Positions 1 to 16,317 of a stretch of 64,000 nucleotides of DNA are shown here, in pieces; position 1 is the first letter of the stretch; the number at the start of each line of letters is the position of its first letter. The notes under the pieces are model-generated. The model saw nothing but the letters and a program-made list of their open reading frames with translations. It was not told where the DNA came from and ran no database searches. Both the position numbers and the translations under genes were made by a program. Source of the stretch: an uncultured Ectothiorhodospiraceae bacterium (GTDB lineage: Bacteria > Pseudomonadota > Gammaproteobacteria > Nitrococcales > Nitrococcaceae); contig CAJXSH010000006.1 in assembly GCA_913061005.1 (NCBI GenBank), positions 1-64,000 on the forward strand, read 5' to 3'.

Positions 1-571
1 GACGCAGGCACGTGTATTAACAGATAAGGAACTCAAACAAGTACTCAACTACAACGACGCGTGTGAGCGTCACGCAGTACGCAATCGGCTTATGCTGTTG
101 TTAACACACTGGGCAGGTATGCGCGTTGGTGAGGTAGTAGCAGTGCGTGTCAGTGATGTTATTACGGAAGATAGCAAGCCAAAAACAGAAATTCGGCTGA
201 GCGCACAACAGACAAAAGGCAAGCGAGCACGCACTGTGTTCGTGTCAACACGATTGCAGCGTGAAATCATCAAGTATCTTAAAGCGTCAAACACGCCGTA
301 CAGCGAACGTTCTTTGTTCAGAACACAAAAGAGCCACGCTTTTACTGCTAACACTGCGACGCAACTGCTACAGCGCATATACGCACGTGCTGGCATTGTA
401 GGTGCTACAAGTCACAGCGGTCGTCGTTCGTATCTAACCAAACTCGCTGACAAAGGAGTAAGTGTATTTGTGCTTGCGCAGTTGGCTGGACATCAACACA
501 TCAGCACTACACAGCGTTATGTCAGCGTTAGTGATACGCAGTTGAGGAATGCAGCAGAGTTGGCGAGTTAG
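1..571 (+). CDS. Stand-alone tyrosine recombinase catalytic domain, module A copy (5' end cut by window)
   Basis: Only the first two bases of the start codon are missing: the window begins at the G of an ATG, judged from the second copy at 4486, which has the same N-terminus. The full protein is therefore 190 residues. It is a bare catalytic domain without the N-terminal core-binding domain of typical integrases. All tyrosine-recombinase residues are visible: Arg in GMRVGEV, Lys in the TKGK hairpin, HSGR (the HxxR box), the GHQHIST histidine and the nucleophile in TTQRYV. It is convergent with the integrase that ends at 589, 17 bp away. The first ~140 bases are almost identical to the second copy, then the two diverge. 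Its role is not known; dimer resolution, excision control or an inversion function like FimB/FimE are possibilities (inference). Confidence 0.88.
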   Translation, partial: TQARVLTDKELKQVLNYNDACERHAVRNRLMLLLTHWAGMRVGEVVAVRVSDVITEDSKPKTEIRLSAQQTKGKRARTVFVSTRLQREIIKYLKASNTPYSERSLFRTQKSHAFTANTATQLLQRIYARAGIVGATSHSGRRSYLTKLADKGVSVFVLAQLAGHQHISTTQRYVSVSDTQLRNAAELAS

Positions 572-588
572 AAACAACCTTATTGTGA

Positions 589-1908
589 TTAGCGTATGCG
601 ACGCCGACGTGACTGTATTAAGTCAATATTCTGCTCACTCTCAAGTTGGCTGGCATAGAATCTGTCAATCATTTCCGCACTCGTTCGCGCATTCCTTGCC
701 AACGTCACATAGTCCATTTTCTCGCCATACATCAGCCTAAACATAATGCCAGTATGACGCAGTGAGTAGATTGTGCGCTTGCCACCTTTCGCGCCATACT
801 CCAAATCTAACTCTCTCAGCAGTATGTCAAACTGTTGCTGTAGCAGTTTCAGCGTATAGCCTCTGTTTTCGTACTGTGGATAGAACACATAGTCATCAGC
901 GCTCACACCTCTGCCTTGTGATTTGTTGTACGCAGTAAGTCGCTCATACACTTCAACTGCCATCTTCATACTTACGATAGTGCCGTCGTGCTTTTTAGAG
1001 CGTGGTGGATTGAGGCGAAGGTATGTGTATTCGTCACGCACTATCTCAACATGCTTGTGCTTGAGATTTTTTAAGTCTGTTGGACGTATGTATGTGTTTG
1101 GCATAAACACAATCATTTCGCGCAACTCGCGCGTTATAGTCACTGTGCGTATGAGTTTGCCTTGCTTCTCTGTTTGCTCCTCATAGTAGTCAGCGTGTGT
1201 AGTGTTGCCATCGTTGTCACGCACTACACGATATTGATAACGCTTGCCTATAAGCGCCTTAGCACGACTGTAGAGTTTGCGATATTCACGCGCTGTAAAG
1301 TAGCCACGCGCAGCATCTTCAGTGCCTACAGTTGGCATATGAGGCATTTGTGTAAGCAGACGACGCTTGTAGGCATCACTCAGCACACGCTTAACCAAAC
1401 GCATATATGCGCCGATTGTTGAGATAGACAGCGGAGGCTGTTGCGCAGACAGATGCGACAGATACTGTTCTAAGTGCTCGTAGTGGATGTCGTTGATGTC
1501 TGTGTTGCCAAAGTAAGGCATCACACTGCGACGCAGTCTGTAAGTCACAATGTCGACAGTGTCTTTCGTCAACTGTCCGCGTGCTAACTTGCCACGCTGC
1601 GACTCCAGAACGTGTTCAGCACACTGTGCGAATGCTGTGCGTGACATAATTGCTACGCCAGCAGCACGCTTTAGATTGATTTCGTCGTAGTACTTCTTCG
1701 CATACTCAATCGCCTCACGCTTTGACTCAGTCTTTGTGCTGCGACGCATAACTTTGCCATCAGCGTAGTAGCGCACTTGCCAGTATCTGCTTGCGTCGCA
1801 CTTATATAGCGTGAGTTTGCGTGGATAGCCTTTTACGTAAGTGAGCGTTTCAGCGATTGGCTGCGTGCGATGACGTGTTTTGTTGGTAGTAGTTTGTTTG
1901 TCAGTCAT
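589..1908 (-). CDS. Tyrosine site-specific integrase, module A
   Basis: A 439-residue integrase from the ATG at 1908, chosen over an upstream in-frame ATG at 1938 because a GGAAG lies just upstream and the sequence before it looks non-coding. The N-terminal third has the beta-rich arm-binding look (YWQVRYYADGK), the middle is a helical core-binding domain, and the C-terminal third is catalytic. Visible catalytic parts are the Arg in NTYIRPTDL, the YSLRH box (Tyr replaces the first His of the usual HxLRH, as in many related integrases) and the nucleophile in MIDRFY. The gene reads away from a tRNA-Pro 3' half at 2100-2144, the usual integrase-next-to-att layout, so it probably targets tRNA-Pro (inference). 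Low GC like the rest of the island. Confidence 0.88.
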   Translation of the reverse strand: MTDKQTTTNKTRHRTQPIAETLTYVKGYPRKLTLYKCDASRYWQVRYYADGKVMRRSTKTESKREAIEYAKKYYDEINLKRAAGVAIMSRTAFAQCAEHVLESQRGKLARGQLTKDTVDIVTYRLRRSVMPYFGNTDINDIHYEHLEQYLSHLSAQQPPLSISTIGAYMRLVKRVLSDAYKRRLLTQMPHMPTVGTEDAARGYFTAREYRKLYSRAKALIGKRYQYRVVRDNDGNTTHADYYEEQTEKQGKLIRTVTITRELREMIVFMPNTYIRPTDLKNLKHKHVEIVRDEYTYLRLNPPRSKKHDGTIVSMKMAVEVYERLTAYNKSQGRGVSADDYVFYPQYENRGYTLKLLQQQFDILLRELDLEYGAKGGKRTIYSLRHTGIMFRLMYGEKMDYVTLARNARTSAEMIDRFYASQLESEQNIDLIQSRRRRIR

Positions 1909-2016
1909 AGCGCTTCCGTGCTTCAAACAGCGCAGCAACTAATACAAGCAGAAACAGATTGTTAGTGATGCTGTGCTTGCGTTGAGTAGAACTGTAGCAC
2001 GCAACTGTGGAGGAAA

Positions 2017-2040
2017 GTAGTATAGAAAAAACTATACTAC
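2017..2040. repeat. Perfect inverted repeat GTAGTATAG / CTATACTAC
   Basis: Two 9-bp arms (2017-2025 and 2032-2040) separated by six A. The same GTAGTATAG occurs again at 2213-2221, with an overlapping TAGTATAG at 2203-2210, on the other side of the tRNA-Pro fragment. Repeats that flank a tRNA-derived core are typical of integrase or excisionase arm sites; the binding role is inference. Confidence 0.6.
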
Positions 2041-2074
2041 GATTGAGAAAAAAGATAGCGCCGAAGTGGCGCTA
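2041..2074 (-). terminator. Rho-independent terminator, minus strand
   Basis: A 7-bp GC-rich stem (TAGCGCC at 2056-2062 with GGCGCTA at 2068-2074, 5-nt loop) is followed on the minus strand by a T-rich run (complement of 2043-2053). It would end transcripts coming from the lipoprotein/H-NS-like gene run to the right before they reach integrase A. Confidence 0.6.
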
Positions 2075-2099
2075 AATTATTGATTCTATGAAGAAAAAA

Positions 2100-2144
2100 T
2101 GGTCGGGGTGGCGAGATTTGAACTCACGACTCCTGCCTCCCGAA
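2100..2144 (-). other. tRNA-Pro(CGG) 3' half, att-site core of module A
   Basis: Read on the minus strand, these 45 nt run exactly from the anticodon loop (TTCGGGA, anticodon CGG) through a 5-nt 3' stem arm, a 5-nt variable loop, a paired T arm (GTGAG/CTCGC around TTCAAAT), the acceptor strand CACCCCG, A and CCA. Every segment has the canonical length. Upstream on that strand there is no anticodon 5' arm, D arm or acceptor partner, so it is not a functional tRNA. Identity from the anticodon loop to the 3' end is the usual crossover segment of tRNA-targeting tyrosine integrases, so this is read as an attP-like or leftover attachment site. Confidence 0.8.
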
Positions 2145-2244
2145 GACTCTACGCTTTTTTATAGATCAATAAAATCAATAATTTACATAATATCTAAGTC
2201 AAATAGTATAGGAGTAGTATAGTCTTTTGCAACCAGTGCTTCGT

Positions 2245-2562
2245 TTAAATGCACAGATAAAGGAAGTGATTTTCTGTCGCTGTTGCCTCAATAATTGTTG
2301 ATTGGTACGCAGCCTCTTCTTTTCCAAGTTTCTTGCATGTCGTATCTGCAAGTGCACTAACTGCTTCGTTTGGTTCTCTCCTAATGTACTCGCCACCATT
2401 AACAGCAATAGTGACACTGCTATCTGTCGCCTCAACAACTTTCATATCTGCTGTAATACCGCTGTCAGACAGTGCTTGTCCAAATCCTTTTTTCGCAGAC
2501 TCCTGCAGTGTCTGACAGCCAGATATTGCAATAACTATCGCGATTATGTAGATGTATTTCAT
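2245..2562 (-). CDS. Small lipoprotein of the island, unknown function
   Basis: A 105-residue protein with a clear lipoprotein signal: hydrophobic stretch IIAIVIAISGC with the lipobox Cys at about residue 16. The mature part has no family that I recognise. A GAGG sits 5 nt upstream of the ATG at 2562, which follows the H-NS-like gene by 26 nt, so the two are probably co-transcribed. Transcription likely stops at the hairpin 2041-2074. Surface lipoproteins on small mobile elements are sometimes exclusion or entry-blocking factors, but nothing in the sequence shows this here. Confidence 0.75.
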   Translation of the reverse strand: MKYIYIIAIVIAISGCQTLQESAKKGFGQALSDSGITADMKVVEATDSSVTIAVNGGEYIRREPNEAVSALADTTCKKLGKEEAAYQSTIIEATATENHFLYLCI

Positions 2563-2588
2563 GTCAGCCTCTACAATTTCAAACGAAA

Positions 2589-2777
2589 TTAGTTGGACGA
2601 TTTTTTAGTAACTCGTCCAGGTTTCAAAACATTCTTCAGCATGCGGTAAGTAAAACCATGTCGTTTGCATAGACTACGGACGAGTTTTAAATCCTCTTGT
2701 CTCTGCTTCTTGCTTGCTTCTTGGATTCTTTTTTCTAACTCAGTCTTCTGCTGTTCAAGTTCTTCTAACGTTGTCAT
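2589..2777 (-). CDS. Short H-NS-family-like coiled-coil protein
   Basis: A 62-residue basic protein. Residues 1-30 form a heptad-rich coiled coil, followed by a segment (LVRSLCKRHGFTYRMLK) that resembles the dimerisation part of H-NS-family proteins, in which a coiled coil leads into 'xxxMxxxGlTxxdL'. The C-terminal DNA-binding module with its WxGxGRxP core is absent. Instead the end is a short basic tail containing PGR flanked by Lys and Arg, faintly like an AT-hook. The start is preceded by a weak AAGG. It could poison or modulate host H-NS-like silencing of this AT-richer island (inference). Family assignment is by pattern only. Confidence 0.6.
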   Translation of the reverse strand: MTTLEELEQQKTELEKRIQEASKKQRQEDLKLVRSLCKRHGFTYRMLKNVLKPGRVTKKSSN

Positions 2778-2889
2778 TTTTGACCTTATCGATTATCTGT
2801 ACCTGCTGCAGCATAGCCTCAACCTCGTCTGTACTGCAACTACACGCTACGTAGCCCTAATCGTATCCTTCCAACGTGTAATGTGACGC

Positions 2890-3222
2890 TTACTGCTCGC
2901 GCTGCTGTTGAGGCGTTAACGGAGGCTGCGGCTGTGTTGGTGCTGTGTCACGCTTGTCACGTGTTCTTTCTGCGTCGTCTGCGTCACTGTTCGTCGCAGC
3001 CCTCTGTTTCACAACCTTTGTCTGCGGTATAGCCACTTTCTGTGTGCGCGTCTTTGTCTTGCTGTCAGCGCCGTCCATCTTCCTTGCTAACTGCACAATG
3101 CTCTCGCTGGCGCCAAGTAGCAGTTGCAGTGCTGCCATCCTCGTCTGCGCATCTTCTGCGCTCACTGTGTCACGTATAGCGTTCAGACTGCGCTGTATGT
3201 CTTGCAGCGCTGCCTTGCTCAC
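2890..3222 (-). CDS. Unknown island protein with low-complexity tail, third gene of coupled cassette
   Basis: A 110-residue protein starting at a GTG whose bases overlap the stop of the 38-residue gene upstream (GTGA). Residues 1-55 are predicted helical (LQDIQRSLNAIRD... LLLGASESIVQLARKM). Residues 55-110 are charged and rich in Thr, Gln and Pro and probably disordered. I do not recognise a family. The stop-start overlap indicates translational coupling with the two genes upstream (3335 and 3658 starts). Confidence 0.65.
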   Translation of the reverse strand: MSKAALQDIQRSLNAIRDTVSAEDAQTRMAALQLLLGASESIVQLARKMDGADSKTKTRTQKVAIPQTKVVKQRAATNSDADDAERTRDKRDTAPTQPQPPLTPQQQREQ

Positions 3223-3335
3223 AGCATCGCCCTTGTTAAAAAGCGTACCGAGTTCAAATCACCACCGACAATCTGTAAGTACTTCAGCGCCAGATTTTGC
3301 AGTACGCAGAAACGCTGCCGTAGTAGCCTTTTCAT
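3219..3335 (-). CDS. 38-residue basic peptide, middle gene of coupled cassette
   Basis: The ATG at 3335 overlaps the stop of the upstream gene (ATGA) and its own TGA overlaps the GTG of the downstream gene (GTGA). The peptide begins MKRLLRQRFC and is basic with a moderately hydrophobic centre; no family is recognised. The double 4-bp overlap is strong positional evidence for a real gene, although a pure coupling leader that carries ribosomes between its neighbours is an alternative. Confidence 0.5.
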   Translation of the reverse strand: MKRLLRQRFCVLQNLALKYLQIVGGDLNSVRFLTRAML

Positions 3336-3658
3336 ATCGCTTCCTTCGCACGCTCTATCCACACAGTGCTGCTGCGTTGCTCTATGTCGCTGTCACAGTC
3401 TTTTGCAAGCGCTTCAAAGTGTCGTGCTGCTGCCTTGTTCGCGTTGCCTTCTTTGCTTGCGTACTGTTTGGCGTAGTAGCGCAGTCTGTTAGATAACACT
3501 GCCAGCACATCAATACTCGGCTGTTGAGCACAAAAGCGCAGCGTGCGTACATAGCCCTCGCTGCGTCCCAGCCACTGCGTACAAAACTCACTGCGCGTCT
3601 GCACCACTCCTATGCTCTCCAGTTCGCTGTATATCGTCTCTAACAGTTTTGCCGCCAT
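3332..3658 (-). CDS. Small helical protein resembling DUF6626-type proteins
   Basis: A 108-residue protein with a helix-turn-helix-like N-terminal half (LLETIYSEL... TRSEFCTQWLGRSEGYVRTL... PSIDVLAVLSNRLR). The pattern 'F..QWLGRS.GY...L......PS...L..L..RLR' recalls the uncharacterised DUF6626 family often found on mobile elements; I recall this from memory and cannot confirm it. First gene of the three-gene coupled cassette that runs to 2890. It diverges from the replicase-like gene at 3723, so the 64-bp gap should hold both promoters. A small regulatory DNA-binding role is plausible. Confidence 0.6.
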   Translation of the reverse strand: MAAKLLETIYSELESIGVVQTRSEFCTQWLGRSEGYVRTLRFCAQQPSIDVLAVLSNRLRYYAKQYASKEGNANKAAARHFEALAKDCDSDIEQRSSTVWIERAKEAI

Positions 3659-3722
3659 ATCTTCGCTCCGTTAATAAATACACGCACACGTTGACGTGCA
3701 GTTGTATTTAGCGGAGATGCAT

Positions 3723-4253
3723 ATGAGGCAGTACACAAAGGAAGACGTTGCAAGGCTTGCGTATGAGAACGCGCATCTAATGCAGTACTACATCGTTGCG
3801 CAGACGCACTTTCGTCCATACAACAAGACAGACGCACGTATAGCTCAAGCTCGCGATGATACAGCGAAAGCGTTAAAACACGCACTTAACTGCTTTACAA
3901 GCGAGGTAAACGCTGGACACGCAAGTAGAGCAAAGCGCAAGCCGCATATCTACCGTCCAGCCACATTTTCAACGATTGAGTGCATTAGCGCCAGCGCACT
4001 GCGTCATCAAACAATGCACGTCAACGTACTTGTAGGAAATCTACCAGGCATACTCACAGCACAAGACGTTCAAACACTATTCAGGCATTGCTGGTTAAAC
4101 AAGGCACAACAGGCAGATGATGTACACGTCTGCAACTATGACGGCAGTAGAAGGCTTATTGATTACACGCTTAAGGAAGGCAGCATCGGCGATATAGGCA
4201 TTTGGTGCGTAGAAAACACATTTATTCCACGCGCAGCACTGCACGCAGACTAA
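3723..4253 (+). CDS. HUH-endonuclease-like (rolling-circle Rep-like) protein, variant motif
   Basis: A 176-residue protein from the ATG at 3723 (GGAG six bases upstream; the upstream in-frame ATG at 3717 and GTG at 3696 lack proper spacing). Residues 99-106 (HVNVLVGN) resemble the metal-binding HUH strand 'HhHhLh..', with Asn in place of the second His. Residues 134-153 (VHVCNYDG... DYTLKEG) resemble the Rep segment leading to the catalytic 'YhxK' motif, with Tyr148 and Lys151. The spacing between the two motifs suits a compact Rep domain; residues 1-95 are helical. Such proteins start rolling-circle replication of small plasmids, filamentous phages and related elements. Whether this one is active is unknown. 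Iteron-like repeats lie directly downstream. Confidence 0.5.
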   Translation: MRQYTKEDVARLAYENAHLMQYYIVAQTHFRPYNKTDARIAQARDDTAKALKHALNCFTSEVNAGHASRAKRKPHIYRPATFSTIECISASALRHQTMHVNVLVGNLPGILTAQDVQTLFRHCWLNKAQQADDVHVCNYDGSRRLIDYTLKEGSIGDIGIWCVENTFIPRAALHAD

Positions 4254-4485
4254 AGTTAGTGTGCAGAGGAGGGTGATGATGCGCTTGAGTGCGTAGTAGT
4301 TAGTACTGTCAAAACACTCAACTCAAACACATCAAACAGAAAACATAAGAGAATAACGAGACTATTACATTACAGCGCAAGTGCTTGATACAGAAAGATA
4401 CAGAAAGAGCACGATAGACTCTTGCTCAAACAAAACATCAGAAAACACACTGTATGTCATCAAACACAACGTTTTGGAGACAAAG
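4254..4485. other. Repeat-rich intergenic region, candidate origin or recombinase sites
   Basis: This 232-bp gap between the Rep-like gene and the second small recombinase has no gene. It is rich in A and C on the plus strand, almost without G in 4306-4360. It holds four TCAAACA heptamers and a perfect tandem 10-bp repeat, listed separately. A replication origin or a recombinase regulatory site fits; neither is shown. Confidence 0.45.
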
Positions 4486-4526
4486 ATGACGCAGGCACGT
4501 GTATTAACAGATAAGGAACTCAAACA
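4323..4526 (+). repeat. Iterated TCAAACA heptamers (five copies)
   Basis: TCAAACA starts at 4323, 4332, 4426, 4460 and 4520, all on the plus strand; the last copy is inside the recombinase coding region and is shared with the module A copy. Same-strand iteration next to a Rep-like gene is what iterons look like, but the motif is short and the region is compositionally biased. Confidence 0.4.
4387..4406 (+). repeat. Perfect tandem 10-bp repeat
   Basis: GATACAGAAA occurs twice head to tail (4387-4396 and 4397-4406) within the intergenic region upstream of the second small recombinase. Confidence 0.7.
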
Positions 4527-5058
4527 AGTACTCAACTACAACGACGCGTGTGAGCGTCACGCAGCACGCAATCGTCTTATGCTGTTGTTAACACACTGGG
4601 CAGGTATGCGCGTTGGTGAGGTAGTAGCACTGCGTGTATGTGATGTAGTGACAGAGGACGGTGCTGTGCGCAGCGAAGTTAGATTGAGTAGTACACAGAC
4701 AAAAGGGAAGCACGCACGCACGGTGTTTGTTTCTACAAGGCTGCAGCGCGAGATAAAAAAGTACCTACAAGCATCAAACAAGCGCTACAGCGAACGTTCT
4801 TTGTTTAGCACGCAAAAGAGCCGTGCTTTTACTGCAAACACTGCGACACAGCTTCTGCAGCGCATTTATGCACGCGCAGGTATGCAAGGCGCTACAAGTC
4901 ACAGCGGACGACGTTCATATCTTACAAAGCTTGCAGACAAAGGCGTAGGTGTTTTTGTACTGGCGCAGCTTGCAGGACATAGGCACATAAGCACGACACA
5001 GCGTTATGTCAGTGTTAGCAACACACAGTTGCGAAATGCAGCGGAGTTAGCGAGTTAG
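4486..5058 (+). CDS. Stand-alone tyrosine recombinase catalytic domain, module B copy
   Basis: 190 residues from the ATG at 4486, which has GGAGA five bases upstream; the longer in-frame start at 4381 has no ribosome site and lies in the repeat region. It is a bare catalytic domain: Arg42 (GMRVGEV), the TKGK Lys near 73-75, His139-x-x-Arg142, His165 and the nucleophile Tyr174 (TTQRYV). It is a close relative of the copy at position 1. The first 140 bases are nearly identical; afterwards many synonymous and some amino-acid changes appear. It is convergent with the small membrane protein gene and integrase B. Function unknown; resolution or excision are candidates (inference). Confidence 0.9.
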   Translation: MTQARVLTDKELKQVLNYNDACERHAARNRLMLLLTHWAGMRVGEVVALRVCDVVTEDGAVRSEVRLSSTQTKGKHARTVFVSTRLQREIKKYLQASNKRYSERSLFSTQKSRAFTANTATQLLQRIYARAGMQGATSHSGRRSYLTKLADKGVGVFVLAQLAGHRHISTTQRYVSVSNTQLRNAAELAS

Positions 5059-5090
5059 GATGTGTTTCTTTAATAGCTCGTAGATAAGCG

Positions 5091-5240
5091 TCATCTTTCA
5101 TCTTGTTTAAGCGATCGTATCTTCACCAGCTCGTCATATACCGCTTTTGTTTTGTTCGCTATCTCTGTAAGTGTTCTGCTTATAACAAGCAAGAGCCCTG
5201 CGATTACTACGAGTAAAAATACTTCGATATTAAAGCCCAT
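5091..5240 (-). CDS. 49-residue single-span membrane protein
   Basis: A short gene with a strong AAGGAG six bases upstream of its ATG at 5240. Residues 5-20 form one hydrophobic helix (VFLLVVIAGLLLVI), followed by a charged amphipathic helix (TEIANKTKAVYDELVKI). It lies 36 bp downstream of integrase B on the same strand and was probably transcribed with it. Module A has no counterpart: there the two recombinase genes are only 17 bp apart. Function unknown; small membrane proteins of this shape occur as holin-like or toxin peptides, but nothing specific supports that. Confidence 0.6.
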   Translation of the reverse strand: MGFNIEVFLLVVIAGLLLVISRTLTEIANKTKAVYDELVKIRSLKQDER

Positions 5241-5276
5241 ACGACGCTCCTTCTGACGCAAGTAGTTTTTTTGTGT

Positions 5277-6494
5277 TTAACGCAGTGCTGCTTCTATATC
5301 CTTCTCACTGCGTGTGCCAGCGAACTGTTCTGCAAGTAGCATAGGCGTTAGCTTGCTGTAGTGCTGTTCCAGCATACCTACACTTGTTCCCATCTGTACT
5401 GCAAGTTGATGTATATTCCTGCCTCTGTACAGCTCCATCGTTGCGTAGAAGTGACGCAATGAGTACAACGTGCGCGCCTTTTCACTCGTCGTTCCGTACA
5501 GCAAGTCTGCATCACGTAGGAACTGTTCAAAGCTCTGGTGTAGATTCTGCGTGCGTGTGCCATCACGTAGTCTAAACACATATTCATCCACACGCGCATT
5601 CAATAGTTCATCCAACGTGTAGCCTTGTAAGTCGTCAAATCTGTCCTTAATGCGTTGCAGGTAGCGTGCTACTTGATGTTTTGCGATTAGTTGTCTTGTT
5701 CCTGTCTTGCCACTCACAGTCATCTGCAAGTACTGCTGTTTCTGTAGGTCAACGTACCACTCTATGTGCTTCCACTTTAAGTTCTGTGCTTCAGTTCCGT
5801 GTCGCATACCTGTGTTTGCCAGTATCAGCACATAGTCACGCAGCAGTTCACGCATCTGCCGTGTTCTTTCTGTTCGTCCGTTCCTGCTCCAGTGTCGCAA
5901 TCGTTGTACTAAACGACGATACTCTGGCAACGAGAAAGTTGGACGCACGTCACTCTTTCTTCCTTTGTTCGTTAGAGTTGGTAGCTTTTCTCTACTTGCC
6001 CAGCCGTGCTGCACTGCCACTTCAAATACCTTGTTGAGCATCGTGTTGTGATTAGTGATTGTGCTTGCAGGTATAGGTTTGTTCGTTTTCTGTTCACGCC
6101 ACTGTTCAAACTGTGTCATCACCTGCGGCGTTATTGTGTCTACATTCATCCGTCCAAAATAAGGTATGAGCGTGTTGTTAAGCACGGAGATGTATGTGCG
6201 ATACACGCTCTTGCCACGTCCAGCATCAAGCTCAGCTTGCATTTGGTTGATGATGAGTTTGGCGACGTTAGAGAAGCGACGACTTGCAGCAGGTAAGTTA
6301 GCTTGCTGCTTTGCGCGTGCTTCATAGTACAAGTCTAGTGCGCGTTCCTTTGCAGCATCTAACTCGTGTTCACGCGTTGACAGTCTGTGCCACTTGCCAT
6401 CACTTAACTTCACACGCAACTGCCACACGCTACTGCGTTCGCGCTTATAAAGCACTGCAACGGAAGGTATGACTTGCACAGATTTGGTTGGCAT
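5277..6494 (-). CDS. Tyrosine site-specific integrase, module B (tRNA-Lys side)
   Basis: About 405 residues if translation starts at the ATG at 6494; a GTG at 6512 would add six residues, and neither has a good ribosome site. N-terminal arm-type domain (VWQLRVKLSDGKWHRL), helical core-binding domain, C-terminal catalytic domain with Arg in TGMRHGTE, Lys in VSGKTGTR, the YSLRHFYAT box and the nucleophile in MLEQHY. It is related to integrase A in architecture but clearly different in sequence. The 3' end of tRNA-Lys is 89 bp upstream of its start, so it almost certainly catalysed integration there. Repeats lie between gene and tRNA. Confidence 0.9.
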   Translation of the reverse strand: MPTKSVQVIPSVAVLYKRERSSVWQLRVKLSDGKWHRLSTREHELDAAKERALDLYYEARAKQQANLPAASRRFSNVAKLIINQMQAELDAGRGKSVYRTYISVLNNTLIPYFGRMNVDTITPQVMTQFEQWREQKTNKPIPASTITNHNTMLNKVFEVAVQHGWASREKLPTLTNKGRKSDVRPTFSLPEYRRLVQRLRHWSRNGRTERTRQMRELLRDYVLILANTGMRHGTEAQNLKWKHIEWYVDLQKQQYLQMTVSGKTGTRQLIAKHQVARYLQRIKDRFDDLQGYTLDELLNARVDEYVFRLRDGTRTQNLHQSFEQFLRDADLLYGTTSEKARTLYSLRHFYATMELYRGRNIHQLAVQMGTSVGMLEQHYSKLTPMLLAEQFAGTRSEKDIEAALR

Positions 6495-6507
6495 ACACAC
6501 AGCATAT

Positions 6508-6540
6508 AACACACCATATTCGGTGTGCTACAGGTGTGTT
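6508..6540. repeat. Inverted repeat AACACACC / GGTGTGTT with extra GGTGTG, candidate integrase arm site
   Basis: Arms at 6508-6515 and 6533-6540 are perfect 8-bp complements; a further GGTGTG lies at 6522-6527. They sit between integrase B and the tRNA-Lys 3' end and overlap the region of the integrase start, so they may serve both as arm sites and as autoregulatory sites (inference). Confidence 0.5.
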
Positions 6541-6576
6541 AAGAAGAAAAAAGCACCTACGAGAGCGTAAGTGCTT
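6541..6576 (-). terminator. Rho-independent terminator of tRNA-Lys
   Basis: On the minus strand a hairpin (GTGCTT/AAGCAC and CGTA/TACG, one C-A mismatch, loop of four) is followed by TTTTTTCTTCTT. It begins a few bases past the tRNA CCA end. Because it lies beyond the tRNA 3' end in low-GC DNA, it was probably brought in by the element. Confidence 0.65.
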
Positions 6577-6582
6577 GATATT

Positions 6583-6658
6583 TGGTGGGTCGTGCAGGAT
6601 TCGAACCTGCGACCAGCGGATTAAAAGTCCGATGCTCTACCAACTGAGCTAACGACCC
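6583..6658 (-). tRNA. tRNA-Lys(UUU)
   Basis: Complete cloverleaf with encoded CCA: acceptor GGGTCGT/ACGACCC, D arm GCTC...GAGC, anticodon loop CTTTTAA (anticodon TTT), variable TGGTC, T arm GCAGG/CCTGC around TTCGAAT. The first and last pair of the anticodon stem is a T-C mismatch. It is the chromosomal integration target of the island; the matching second 3' copy expected at the far end of the element is not within this window. It lies 55 bp after cpoB on the same strand and may share its transcript. Confidence 0.96.
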
Positions 6659-8258: not shown

Positions 8259-9602
8259 CTAAAGCGGTCCCCAGTCCGGCTCGCGAACGGTGTGATTGAA
8301 CTCGGTGAGTTCGCCCTGCACCCGACCGAAGACCGATACCGTCGCCAGTTCGGTGCTGCCATTGGCCGAGCGGGTGTAGGCGATCATGCTGCCGCTCGCC
8401 GAAAAGCTCGGTGACTCGTCAAGCGGGCCCTCGGTGAGGACACGCATGAATTCCTCTTCGAGATCCTGGACGGCGATGCGAAAACCGCCATCCACCTCGT
8501 GGGCGAACGCCAGAAAACGCCCATCGCCGGAGATGCTCGGGCTAGCGTTGTAGTTGCCCTGAAAGGTCACGCGCTCGACATCGCCGCTTGCCACATCCAC
8601 CGAGTAGATTTGCGGGCTGCCGCCCCGGTTGGAGGTGAAATAGATCGTCTGGCCGTCCGGCGACCAGGTCGGCTCGGTGTCGATGCCAAAATGCCGGGTC
8701 AGCTGCCGCGGCTCGCCGCTTTCCAGATCCAGCAGATAGATATCCGGGTTGCCGCCGCGTGACAGGGTGATGGCGAGCTGTTCGCCATCCGGTGACCAGG
8801 CCGGTGCGCCATTGATGCCGGCAAAGCTCGCCACGCTCTGCCGCTCGCTGGTGGCGACTTCCTGGACAAAGATCTGCGAGCTGCGCCCGGATTCAAACGA
8901 GACATAGGCCAGCCGCTCGCCATCCGGTGACCAGTCCGGCGACATCAGCGGCTCGGCGGATTGGAGGATGCGCTGCGGGCGGTGGCCATCCGCCTCGGCC
9001 ACCACCAGGTGGTATTGGCGGTCATCCACCGGTCCGCGTTCTTCGACGTAGGCGATGCGGCTGTTAAAGCCACCGGGCCGGCCAATCAGCGCCTCGAATA
9101 TCTGATCGCTGATGGTGTGGGCGAGGTTGCGCAGCCCCGCCGGGGTGACGTTGAAGCGCTGCCCGGCCAGCCGCTCGCCGGCATAGACATCCAGCAGCTC
9201 GTAGCGGACCTGGAAGTTGCCGTTGGTCCCGGGGCGGATACGGCCGACGACCAGTGTGTCGGCCCCCAGCGCCCGCCAGTTACGAAAGCGGACATCGTCG
9301 AACCGGCTGGGGTTGCTGATGAAATTGGCGGGGTCCAGCGGGTCGAACAATCCGCTGCGGTAGAGGTTGTCGCGAATGATGCGATCGACATCGACGTTCA
9401 CCCGGGTGCCGTCGGCGGCGAAGGGCACCACGGCAATGGGCAGGGCCGCCTCGGCGCCGCCGGTGATCTCGATGCGCACCTGGGCGTGGCTGATGATCGG
9501 TGCCGCGAGCAGCAGGCCAAGCAGCAAAAGCCCGGCGAGCGGGCGTCGTTGCCGCGTTGCCGGTCGCCGGAGGAGATCGCGCAGGGTGTGGATGCTGCTC
9601 AT
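8259..9602 (-). CDS. tolB: Tol-Pal system beta-propeller protein TolB
   Basis: About 447 residues from the ATG at 9602; a start at 9722 overlapping the tolA stop would add 40 residues that do not look coding. A signal peptide (LLLLGLLLAAPIISHAQ) precedes the N-terminal domain, followed by a six-bladed propeller with repeated 'SPDWSPDG..LAY', 'PAWSPDG', 'PTWSPDG' motifs. Periplasmic partner of Pal, TolA and colicins. A 117-bp gap separates it from tolA if the short start is right. Confidence 0.94.
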   Translation of the reverse strand: MSSIHTLRDLLRRPATRQRRPLAGLLLLGLLLAAPIISHAQVRIEITGGAEAALPIAVVPFAADGTRVNVDVDRIIRDNLYRSGLFDPLDPANFISNPSRFDDVRFRNWRALGADTLVVGRIRPGTNGNFQVRYELLDVYAGERLAGQRFNVTPAGLRNLAHTISDQIFEALIGRPGGFNSRIAYVEERGPVDDRQYHLVVAEADGHRPQRILQSAEPLMSPDWSPDGERLAYVSFESGRSSQIFVQEVATSERQSVASFAGINGAPAWSPDGEQLAITLSRGGNPDIYLLDLESGEPRQLTRHFGIDTEPTWSPDGQTIYFTSNRGGSPQIYSVDVASGDVERVTFQGNYNASPSISGDGRFLAFAHEVDGGFRIAVQDLEEEFMRVLTEGPLDESPSFSASGSMIAYTRSANGSTELATVSVFGRVQGELTEFNHTVREPDWGPL

Positions 9603-9718
9603 CAGTGGCGTTCCGCAGGTTCCGGGCCGCCGCCAGGGCGACCGCGAGGTGAATGATCCATTGCCAGGGCCCAATGCTAACGGAACCAATCGTTGGATGT
9701 TAGCCGCGGGGCGCCGGT

Positions 9719-10737
9719 TCATTCGTCGGGCGCGAAAACCAGCTCCACCCCCTCGCGATAGGGGGCGGCCAGCACCGGATCATCGGGCATCGGCAAGGGA
9801 TCGGCCCGACGGACCGCGGTTTCCGCCGAGCGGTCGAAGGCGGCGTTGCCGCTGCTGCGGACCACCTGGGCGGCGAGCACGACACCGCCGGGGCCGAGCC
9901 TGACCTCGACCACACAGCTCAGTCCCTCGGGTGTGCCGGCGGGGCGATTCCAGACGGCTTCGACTTTCTGGCGAATGGCGCCGTCATAAGTCCCCCGGGC
10001 CTCGGCGATGCGCTCTGCCCGCTGGGCGGCCTCCTGTTCGGCCCGAGCCCGGGCTTCGGCGCGGGCGCGGGCTTCGGCTTCGCGCCGGGCGGCCGCCGCG
10101 GCTTCGGCTTCTCGACGCGCCTGGGCCTCGGCCTCGGCTTCCGCCTCGCGCCGGGCCTGTTCTTCGGCCTCGCGTTGTGCCCGGGCCTCGGCCTCGCGTC
10201 GGGCCTGTTCTTCGGCCTCGCGCCGCGCCTGTTCGGCCGCTTCGGCCTCGCGGCGGGCCTGTGCTTCGGCTTCGCGCTGGCGCTGGGCCGCCTGCTCGGC
10301 TTCTCGCCGGGCCTGTTCGGCGGCCTCGCGCTGACGCCGGGCCTCGGCCTCGGCCTCGCGCCGCGCCTGCTCGGCGGCCCGGGCGGCCTCGCGTTCGGCG
10401 GCAAGGCGTTCGGCCTCTTCGCGGCGGGCTGCCTCGAGTTCGGCCAGTTCGGCTTCGCGGGCGCGGCGTTCGGCGGCGGCCTGCGCCTCCAGCGCCTCGA
10501 CCGCCGCTTCGACCTCGGCTTCGTCCACGGCCACCGCCTGCACTGCCTGTTGCGTGCCGGCCGGCGCCTGATCGGTGACCGAACCCCACTGGAAACTCAC
10601 CCCGAAGGCGGCGAAAAGCAGCCCGTGGGCGGCCAGTGACAGGCCCAGGTCCCGCCAGCTCACCCCGGCGATCCCGCCGCCACTCAGCCCGCTGCCAAGC
10701 CGGTCGAGCCAGCCCTTGCCAAGCCCGGCCGGTATTT

Positions 10738-14092: not shown

Positions 14093-14836
14093 TCAGGCCT
14101 CCTCGTAGGCGTCAGCCTGGATGTCGGCGTTGGTGTAGACATGCTGGACATCGTCCAGGTCTTCCAGGCGCTCAATGAGCCGCAGGGTCTTGCTGGCCTC
14201 ATCGCCCTCCAGCGCGGTGGTGGTGGTCGGGCGCATGGTGACCTCGGCATCGGCCGGTTCCAGGCCCGCGGCCACCAGATCATCCCGCACCTGGGTAAAG
14301 GCCTCGGGCGTGGTCAGCACCTCAAAGGCGCCGTCATCGTGGCTGATGACGTCTTCGGCGCCGGCCTCGAGGGCGGCCTCCATCAATCCATCCTCATCGG
14401 TATCGGGCGGATAGATCAGCACCCCGCGTTGTTCGAACATAAAGGCCACACAGCCATCGGTGCCCAGGTTGCCGCCGTGTTTGTTGAATGCATGGCGGAT
14501 CTCGCTGACCGTGCGGTTGCGGTTGTCGGTCATGCAATCGGCCATGATCGCGATACCGCCGGGGCCATAGCCTTCGAAACGGGCTTCCTCGTAGGCCGCG
14601 GCCTCATCGGTGCCGGCGCCACGGGCGGCGGCTTTCTCGATCTTGTCCTTGGGCATGTTGACCGCCAGCGCCCGGTCCACCGCCAGTCGCAGGCGCGGGT
14701 TGGCGTCGGGGTCGTCGCCGCCCTGGCGGGCCGCGACGGTAATCTCGCGGATCATCTTGGTGAACACCTTGCCGCGCTTGGCATCCTGCGCCTTTTTGCG
14801 GTGCTGGATATTGGCCCATTTACTGTGCCCTGCCAT
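14093..14836 (-). CDS. yebC: YebC/PmpR-family protein
   Basis: 247 residues from the ATG at 14836, giving the family's invariant start [14 protein letters not shown]. Conserved stretches [16 protein letters not shown] and PKDKIEKA follow. Family members have been described as transcription factors and, more recently, as ribosome-associated factors that help at difficult motifs. Its usual place directly before ruvC is kept. Confidence 0.96.
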
Positions 14837-14928
14837 GGTCTCCCTCGTCCGATCGGCCCATATCAATTCGCCAATCGGCAGATTACCATGCCGAAAAAGC
14901 TCCGACAGGACGCTGGATCGCAGGGCAC

Positions 14929-16317
14929 ATGGCGCAGACCTTCATTCCATACCCCATTGACGTGGTGGCAACCGTGGCGGCGATCCGCCGCGACTGGCCA
15001 GCGGTGGTCTGGCTCGACGGCGACGCCGGTGGGGATCACAGCATCATCAGCGCCGCACCACGCGAGCAGCTCATCAGTCGTGGGGGCGAGACCTGGGTGG
15101 CGGATCCGCTGTCGGACCGGCCCGCCCGAGCGCTGGGCAAGGGCGATCCGCTGGCCCATCTGCGCGAGCGCCTGGGCCCGGTGCGGCCCGGGCAGGGGCC
15201 TTTTGCCGGGGGCGCGATTGGTTATTTCAGCTACGAGCTGGGTCGGCGTCTGCAGGGGCAGACCGTCGCCGATGCGGGCATGCCCGAGATGGCGGTGGGC
15301 CTTTATGACTGGGCGCTGGTGCTCGACCACCGCAGGCGCCGGGCCTGGTTGGCCGGCGAGCCGCCGGCTGCCCTGGCCGATGCGCTGACAAGCGCGGCGG
15401 CGCAATCGCCCGGTCCATGGTCAACCGGGGGGCATGTCCAGTGCGCGCCCGGCTTTGGCGGCTATGCCGAGGCCTTCCATCGGGTGATGGGTTATCTGCG
15501 CGATGGCGACTGCTACCAGGTCAACCTCGCCCGGCGCTTTCGTGGGGATTTCGAGGGGGATCCGCTGGGGCTCTACCGGGACTTCCGCGCCCGGGCGGGC
15601 GGGCCGTTTGCCGCGTATCTGGAGCTGCCCGGGGGGCCGATCCTGAGCGGTTCGCCAGAGCGCTTTCTGCGGTTGCGTGATGGTTGTGTCGAGACCTGCC
15701 CGATCAAGGGCACCCGCCCCCGGCAGGCCGATCCGGCGGCCGACGCACGGGCCCGCGAGTCGCTGCTATCGAGTGCCAAGGATCGGGCCGAGAATGTGAT
15801 GATCGTGGATTTGCTGCGCAATGACATCGGCCGTTGCTGCGCCACGGGAACCGTGACGGTCCCGCGGCTCTGTGCCCTTGAGTCATTCGCCACGGTCCAT
15901 CACATGGTCAGTGTCGTCACCGGCCGGCTGGATCCGCGCTTTCATGCCACCGATCTGCTGCGGGACTGTCTGCCCGGTGGTTCGATTACCGGCGCGCCCA
16001 AATACCGGGCCATGGAGATCATCGATGAGTTGGAAGACGGCCCGCGTGGCGTCTACTGTGGGGCCATCGGCTATATCGGCTACGACGGGGCAATGGATAG
16101 CAACATCGCCATTCGCACCATGACCGCGCGGGATGGCCAGCTGGATTATCGCGCCGGCGGCGGACTGGTGATGGACTCGGCCTGCCGCGAGGAATACGAC
16201 GAGACCAGTGCCAAGGCCGAGGCCTTCTGCGGGGTGGTGGAACAAGGCGGCCAGGCGCATGTTGCAGAGCAGCAATTTCCGTTTGACGCTGATATGATGC
16301 AGAGTTTTGATCGATAG
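14929..16317 (+). CDS. pabB: Aminodeoxychorismate synthase component I (PabB)
   Basis: 462 residues of the chorismate-binding family. The N-terminal part has [14 protein letters not shown] and the catalytic half has PIKGTRPRQ, whose Lys marks PabB (TrpE has Ala there), followed by [29 protein letters not shown] and [22 protein letters not shown] segments. It makes 4-amino-4-deoxychorismate for folate synthesis with a PabA glutaminase encoded elsewhere. Divergent from yebC across 92 bp; runs into the pha cluster downstream. Confidence 0.93.

Follow-up and report, generated by a model that had tools for sequence, protein, structure and literature searches.

A probable circular integrative plasmid adjoining a related element at tRNA-Lys in an uncultured Ectothiorhodospiraceae bacterium

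The 64-kb window analysed here, the whole stretch of DNA under study, begins at base 1 of contig C6 in the draft genome of an uncultured Ectothiorhodospiraceae bacterium (1.65 Mb, 37 contigs, 84.7% complete). Its first 6.58 kb probably combine two related mobile elements: positions 1 to 4487 would be a small integrative plasmid, complete and in circular, unintegrated form (element A), and positions 4488 to 6582 the integrase-proximal end of a second element (element B) residing in tRNA-Lys, the assembler having joined both at a 77-nt stretch common to their genes for a small tyrosine recombinase, smR. The GC content is 0.468 in positions 1 to 4487, 0.472 in 4488 to 6582, and 0.666 past the tRNA-Lys(TTT) gene (6583 to 6658, minus strand), which is the integration site of element B and the only tRNA that ARAGORN called in the window. 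Besides a pair of 190-aa tyrosine recombinases and a pair of full-length integrases, the low-GC part encodes six small proteins. An earlier note on this DNA had described a sharp change in composition at tRNA-Lys and four tyrosine recombinases to its left; both descriptions are borne out, the recombinase genes being smR-A (2 to 571), intA (589 to 1938), smR-B (4486 to 5058), and intB (5277 to 6512). Open reading frames (ORFs) and tRNA parts also confirm the repeated layout that it had pointed out: a 190-aa recombinase on the plus strand, an integrase on the minus strand, and a tRNA 3′ end follow one another twice, once with a tRNA-Pro 3′ half and once with tRNA-Lys. Its view of these as mobile, tRNA-targeting elements whose two integrases differ in specificity holds, but its proposal that they form a tandem or composite pair, with two tRNAs as integration sites, is not supported.

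Attachment site of element A and left edge of the contig

The tRNA-Pro 3′ half extends from the anticodon loop to the CCA (2100 to 2147, minus strand). The first 6.7 kb contain four exact copies of the 8-mer TAGTATAG, at 2018(+), 2032(-), 2204(+), and 2215(+), and the remaining 57.3 kb of the window none; a first-order Markov model predicts 0.18 copies in 6.58 kb, and the maximum across 300 simulations was 2. These copies bracket the tRNA-Pro half as an inverted pair on the intA side (GTAGTATAG / CTATACTAC, 2017 to 2040) and a direct pair beyond it, 11 bp apart (ATAGTATAG / GTAGTATAG, 2203 to 2222). Both sets of arm-like sites recur in two integrated relatives. In L153, from a Syntrophobacter metagenome-assembled genome (MAG), the inverted pair (14765/14779) lies beside an intA-type integrase and the direct pair is at 2564/2576; in L147, from a Comamonadaceae MAG, the variant GTAGTTTAG forms an inverted pair at 16289/16304 and a direct pair at 5908/5920, with one mismatch in the copy at 5920. 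The direct pairs, at the far ends of both elements, are spaced 12 bp. The inverted pair is 59 nt from the core in the window, 47 nt in L147, and 48 nt in L153, and the core is 55 nt from the direct pair in the window and 46 nt in L147. The L147 element is complete, with perfect 49-nt tRNA-Pro(CGG) repeats 10,547 bp apart and a GC content of 0.468 inside and 0.60 to 0.62 outside. The two arm sets, 186 bp apart in the window, are 10.4 and 12.2 kb apart in the integrated L147 and L153. Since the arms stand at opposite element ends in the integrated relatives and both flank the core here, the tRNA-Pro half is an unrecombined attP, the attachment site of an excised element. An attP in this form implies that intA has not integrated element A.

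In the earlier note's model, tRNA-Pro and tRNA-Lys each hold one of two related elements, arranged in tandem or nested. It accounts for the layout seen twice, in which a tRNA 3′ end follows a small recombinase and an integrase; however, a tRNA-Pro half with intA-type arms on both sides is an attP and not an att end, the 3′ half alone is present at the tRNA-Pro site, the host's tRNA-Pro(CGG) gene is an empty site elsewhere, and the left edge is an assembly vertex. A tandem array of islands, in which every member brings an integrase of its own and a piece of one and the same tRNA gene, was likewise rejected, the fragment being tRNA-Pro with both arm sets and the intact gene tRNA-Lys. We regard this model as highly improbable.

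Similar arm pairs adjoin other tRNAs. The exact inverted pair adjoins tRNA-Val in genome G011, at a contig end with no integrase visible there, and a version with one change stands beside tRNA-Thr in G001, where the neighboring integrase shares 37% identity with intA; identity of intA to the L147 integrase beside tRNA-Pro is 43%. The G001 island holds this intA relative but gave no smR match, and it was set aside. In L153 (~2510 and 14836 to 14880), a tRNA-Ala-like 3′ half (by eye) was seen on the integrase side only, no second copy being found, as if that element were integrated at a secondary, non-tRNA site.

The core also bears on the origin of element A. Positions 2097 to 2147 match the tRNA-Pro(CGG) locus of the congener G008, which lies in evenly high-GC DNA, at 51/51 positions, but the core is only 84% identical to the host's own tRNA-Pro(CGG). 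Because the latter is a different allele in high-GC surroundings (0.65 to 0.71) with a 555-aa ORF immediately 3′, it is an empty site. With such a difference between G008 and the host, the core of element A would have been last acquired from another lineage, or A may reside in another species of the sample. The second option is a special case of the explanation favored here, in which A is the circle of another species of the genus, probably Spiribacter, and was joined to this genome solely by the assembler. The G008 match speaks for it; nevertheless, the core may stem from an earlier host, and A and B are alike in composition. We consider this special case conceivable but doubtful.

The left edge of the contig points to the assembler. 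Nucleotides 1 to 77 are identical to 4488 to 4564, with divergence at nucleotide 78; of the 74 contig ends of this draft, 42 were compared, and four further pairs among them likewise share exactly 77 nt. The repetition of the first 77 nt, together with the same overlap at other ends, marks the join as an assembly-graph vertex, and the overlap length suggests the trace of a de Bruijn assembler with k = 77. The simplest graph would be a closed 4,487-bp loop that leads out into the tRNA-Lys element through the 77-mer common to both. When position 4487 is joined to position 1, the smR-A frame, clipped by the contig edge, gains its start codon. The unit holds one each of smR, integrase, attP, p110, DUF6626, and p185, and its gene order (smR, int, att, p110, DUF6626, smR) agrees with that of the G012 element read as a circle. 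On these grounds, positions 1 to 4487 would be a circular permutation of a complete 4,487-bp unit. An assembly-graph vertex can mimic a tandem island.

Alternatively, the contig may represent a true co-integrate: the smR gene of the integrated element B would have taken up circle A, either by homologous recombination or through the action of smR, with the intact attP lying unused within. Such a structure matches the contig as assembled and the near-identical 5′ ends of the two smR genes, and the intact attP fits it as well. However, the contig ends exactly at the repeated 77-mer, and a real left flank would probably have been assembled across a 77-nt repeat. No other contig with the 77-mer turned up in a genome search or in the contig stretches examined; the genome search was not strict, as it also gave no separate match for the window's internal copy. 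We judge the co-integrate rather unlikely and favor a free circle A bridged to element B.

Element B at tRNA-Lys

intB (5277 to 6512, minus strand; phrog_1, 8e-34) lies beside the intact tRNA-Lys gene, the arrangement of integrase and tRNA typical of a tRNA-targeting island. intB-type arm sites occupy 6507 to 6541, with GTGTGCTAC at 6523 and an inverted pair at 6507 to 6515 and 6533 to 6541. A relative of this element is in G012, a single-contig congener, where a 9,827-bp element in tRNA-Phe is delimited by perfect 45-nt repeats (GC 0.51 inside, 0.67 outside) and carries an integrase 43% identical to intB. There, the integrase side has the 9-mer GTGTGCTAC at 9792 and 9803, and the far side has it at 138, with a one-mismatch copy at 182; the 3 exact copies compare with 0.17 expected. 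Next to its att arms, G012 also shows a perfect 29-nt direct repeat (locus L020, 8916 to 8944 and 9766 to 9794) around an outer-membrane beta-barrel gene (8998 to 9711), which sits between integrase and arms as if it were an inserted cassette.

Positions 1 to 4487 contain no tRNA-Lys half and no exact GTGTGCTAC, with just two scattered one-mismatch copies (1768 and 1994); thus, the left end of B lies outside this stretch. Neither the 6.58 kb nor the remainder of the 84.7%-complete draft yielded a second tRNA-Lys 3′ half; a displaced tRNA 3′ fragment is present in the relatives G012 (45 nt) and L147 (49 nt). The chromosomal neighbor of the G012 element, a sulfhydrylase-like gene (by eye), gave just 30 to 41% identity matches in the window genome and so proved unhelpful. 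The 3′ side of tRNA-Lys bears differing DNA between genomes of the genus (L119 to L129; 7 of the 9 loci examined were readable), and it appears to be an integration hot spot in the genus. Besides intB, the visible part of B codes for smR-B (4486 to 5058, plus strand; PF00589, 5.2e-26) and for a 56-aa cargo ORF (5091 to 5261, minus strand) with no match in Pfam or PHROGs.

The small recombinase, its upstream dyad, and the Rep candidate

smR-A (plus strand; PF00589, E 2.7e-24) and smR-B are 87% identical tyrosine recombinases that consist of the catalytic domain only: smR aligns with the catalytic half of XerC/XerD/XerA, without an N-terminal domain, and smR-B matches residues 102 to 275 of the XerC-like 4a8e. 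Among 95 genomes of relatives, the sole strong match besides the window was the smR of G012, 91% identical to smR-B. Over the first 114 nt past the start codon, smR-A and smR-B are 96 to 100% identical, and thereafter 54 to 86%; within that first part, each is 81 to 84% identical to G012. Since the near-identity is confined to the 5′ part, a recent exchange border lies inside smR. Relatives of smR occur on 601 plasmid records, all at <60% identity (31 to 50% in the 20 listed). In the seven plasmid regions read, the gene is single, but in two of them, L135 and L138, a second and longer gene for a tyrosine recombinase lies no more than 5 kb away.

Upstream of smR lies a possible recognition element. 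In 8 of 22 upstream regions (20 loci from GTDB, G012, and the window), a 9-12-9 dyad in which 8 or all of the 9 positions form Watson-Crick pairs is found ~145 bp upstream of the gene, at -141 to -146 relative to smR, or -173 in L152; a shuffled 300-nt region holds such a dyad anywhere with a probability of 0.03. L148 and L151 have such dyads at different positions. We aligned 12 of 24 loci (alignment A7: 10 GTDB loci, G012, and the window, leaving out L145, L146, L148, and L154 to L162). Of the 108 cells, 89.8% pair, and the covariation score is 0.455 versus 0.141 in shuffles, a value reached by 0 of 500 shuffles and by no slid version (≤0.072); most of the rows were already known to contain dyads when they were picked, so that these counts lean towards structure, and several rows are closely related to one another. 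Five pairs are changed on both sides, which 76 of the 500 shuffles equal, so that this count is not clear of chance. In the window, A7, the pair counts, and a fixed-architecture scan place the 30-nt dyad at 4342 to 4371, within a leader (4342 to 4390) that also holds the AAGTGCTTGA block. The dyad may serve as the core site of a recombinase or may form a hairpin in RNA or DNA, and smR probably resolves multimers. More tentatively, smR and the dyad may constitute a site-specific recombination system complete in itself, in which a recombinase reduced to its catalytic domain acts on a loxP-like site of its own. A broad proteobacterial family of replicating integrative elements would then have this system as its conserved core, which would resolve multimers and mark the border of integrase exchange; we hold this to be possible rather than probable. 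Separately, a 17-nt repeat (16/17) links the leader (4374 to 4390) with the terminator-like DNA adjoining tRNA-Lys (6564 to 6580).

p185 (3696 to 4253, plus strand) is a candidate HUH-type Rep for rolling-circle replication, as judged from its motifs. Homologues of p185 are present at 6 of the 22 GTDB smR loci (tblastn, 2e-22 in L147 and 2e-6 in L152); the one in L151 is weak, and that in L155 lies on the opposite side of smR. In the alignment of seven rows, the first His (H108) and the Tyr (Y157) are kept in all seven, HxH in five, with HxN in the window and L147, and the following YxxK in six, with Arg for Lys in L152. The Pfam family PF23343 (REP_ORF2-G2P) was matched below its cut-off in L144 (0.0039), L149 (5.5e-4), and L151 (0.021), and not matched by p185 of the window, L147, L152, or L155. 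L141 has a different protein at the Rep position, with HIH and YCWK and no Pfam match. For p185, no PDB sequence match was obtained up to an E value of 10, and the plasmid search gave no match.

Taken together, these features suggest how such elements may work. The full-length integrase would bind the arm sites seen beside the tRNA-half core and carry out recombination between attP and a tRNA gene in its anticodon-loop region; the target tRNA would stay whole through the 3′ half that the element supplies, and excision would proceed likewise. The free circle would be replicated by the HUH Rep, p185, and multimers would be resolved by smR, a Xer-like catalytic domain lacking the N-terminal domain, perhaps at the dyad upstream of its gene. 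The comparison supports an exchange of integrase modules, with matching arms and targets, around the conserved core, with one border inside smR; the assembler would have bridged circle A to element B at the shared 77-mer.

Several points weigh against this picture. The free circle is a prediction from sequence and contig-end overlap, and the contig starts at position 1, the left end of B lying beyond the sequence. Exact TAGTATAG was not found in L152, even though an intA relative lies there beside tRNA-Met; L152 has an inverted pair of a different sequence, AGTAGCACA. The window dyad pairs at only 6 of 9 positions, fewer than the better dyads of L141 and L144, and the multimer role of smR is a prediction. 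As for p185, the window protein reads HxN for HxH and lacks a Pfam Rep match, its single-sequence fold is uninformative (mean pLDDT, 34.7), and G012 has no notable ORF at the Rep position.

The element family, integrase exchange, and known systems

A GTDB scan with smR alone returned 22 loci at 29 to 63% identity, many of them clipped by contig ends; by title, they come from Halomonas, Burkholderiales, Alphaproteobacteria, the Syntrophobacter MAG, and a Parafilimonas MAG (29%). The same scan with a three-row smR alignment found nothing. DUF6641 lies within 8 kb of smR at 12 of the 22 loci (13 including G012). Among 54 genomes of the order, DUF6626 scored above the Pfam cut-off in 3. A search of 369 genomes of the class showed a weaker smR group, mainly in three genomes of one other genus, with L108 lying near a ParA-like ORF (by eye). 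In IMG/VR, smR gave one weak match (19%, L003), and p185, the three-row smR alignment, intA, and DUF6626 gave none.

Ten of the 22 GTDB loci carry an integrase related to one of six queries, and these are of four kinds: intA type in L147, L152, and L153; intB type in L151; G011 type in L141, beside guaA, and in L155; and a fourth kind in L142, L143, L144, and L149, near a coaD-like gene (by eye) in L142 to L144. Integrases of four kinds around a shared smR core support the view that the core stays while the integrase changes, and that integrase modules are exchanged with their arm sites and targets. The family most likely consists of tRNA-targeting, Rep-bearing integrative plasmids with exchangeable integrase modules, and it is widespread and apparently unnamed. 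Scattered annotations of site-specific integrases, DUF6641, and DUF6626 thus unite into one element family with a recognizable core, around which integrase type, arm sites, and target shift together, and element A, a 4.5-kb natural unit, is small enough for testing. The DUF6626 gene of G011 was rejected as a family member: it lies in a separate island beside guaA (L027, 17597 to 19299), where a distant DUF6626 gene accompanies a different integrase and type I restriction-like genes (by eye). In L151 (Limnohabitans sp. B9-3), the tRNA by the integrase (2493 to 2703) seems to hold a group I intron; none was called at the gathering threshold, and RF00028 scored 40.8 bits (E 4.6e-9), below the gathering score of 50.

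pSAM2-type integrative plasmids combine a rolling-circle Rep, an integrase, an attP in a tRNA 3′ half, and a replicating circular state. The present elements probably follow this plan, with p185 as the candidate Rep, but have no recognized transfer or excisionase gene and conserve an extra catalytic-domain-only recombinase. The small Xer-like recombinases of plasmids are related to smR, yet here smR is a core gene of chromosomally integrating elements. Rit elements (recombinase-in-trio) have three adjacent, co-directional tyrosine recombinase genes, an arrangement not found among the window ORFs, and this identity was rejected. An integrative conjugative or mobilizable element was likewise rejected, with no relaxase or transfer-gene match in Pfam or PHROGs among the ten window proteins (element B being incomplete), as was a phage satellite, with no convincing PHROGs match to packaging or capsid-redirecting functions among the same proteins, only the 62-aa protein giving weak tail or lysis names (E 0.19 to 0.44).

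Islander tRNA/tmRNA islands (PMC4383910) share the tRNA-proximal tyrosine integrase, the 3′ tRNA half as core, the anticodon-loop crossover class, and the restored tRNA gene, here complete in G012 and L147. In contrast to those islands, the present family is defined by smR, DUF6641 or DUF6626, often a HUH Rep, and exchangeable integrases; A is in attP form, and no displaced fragment was seen for B. Strand-biased circularizing integrative elements (SE) and GInts share several tyrosine recombinases in one small gammaproteobacterial element and a circular form; SE have an intA-tfp-intB operon with srap, lie between imperfect inverted repeats of 13 to 19 bp, and encode no HUH enzyme (PMC10214605). 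Unlike in SE, the recombinase genes here are convergent, several members target tRNAs, and a HUH-type protein is present (PMC10214605). Identity with SE/GInts was rejected, since smR and integrase genes are convergent and no intA-tfp-intB operon exists. In a survey of simple tyrosine recombinases, most combine a core-binding domain with a catalytic one (PMC8138268); smR is Xer-like but has the catalytic part only. Our literature search, with most subscription journals outside it, found no paper on DUF6626, on DUF6641, or on an integrative element of Spiribacter, and only relatives in concept. Integrative elements that target tRNA genes and have a replicating circle are known; the present core set with a second recombinase sets this family apart as a variant.

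The remaining genes of element A lie on the minus strand. intA (589 to 1938) matches PF13102 (3.6e-6) and, under its cut-off, PF00589 (8.1e-4). The DUF6626 protein (3332 to 3658) matches PF20331 (E 4.3e-31). p110 (2890 to 3222) is kept in the G012 and Halomonas sp. QHL1 elements; it is 55% identical to a 112-aa G012 protein and has a homologue in L141. The 62-aa protein (2589 to 2777) is a phrog_10171 relative (E 7.9e-6), and a 105-aa putative lipoprotein (by eye; 2245 to 2562), regarded as cargo, is weakly similar over residues 1 to 28 to phrog_1119 (Cor superinfection exclusion; E 0.0056).

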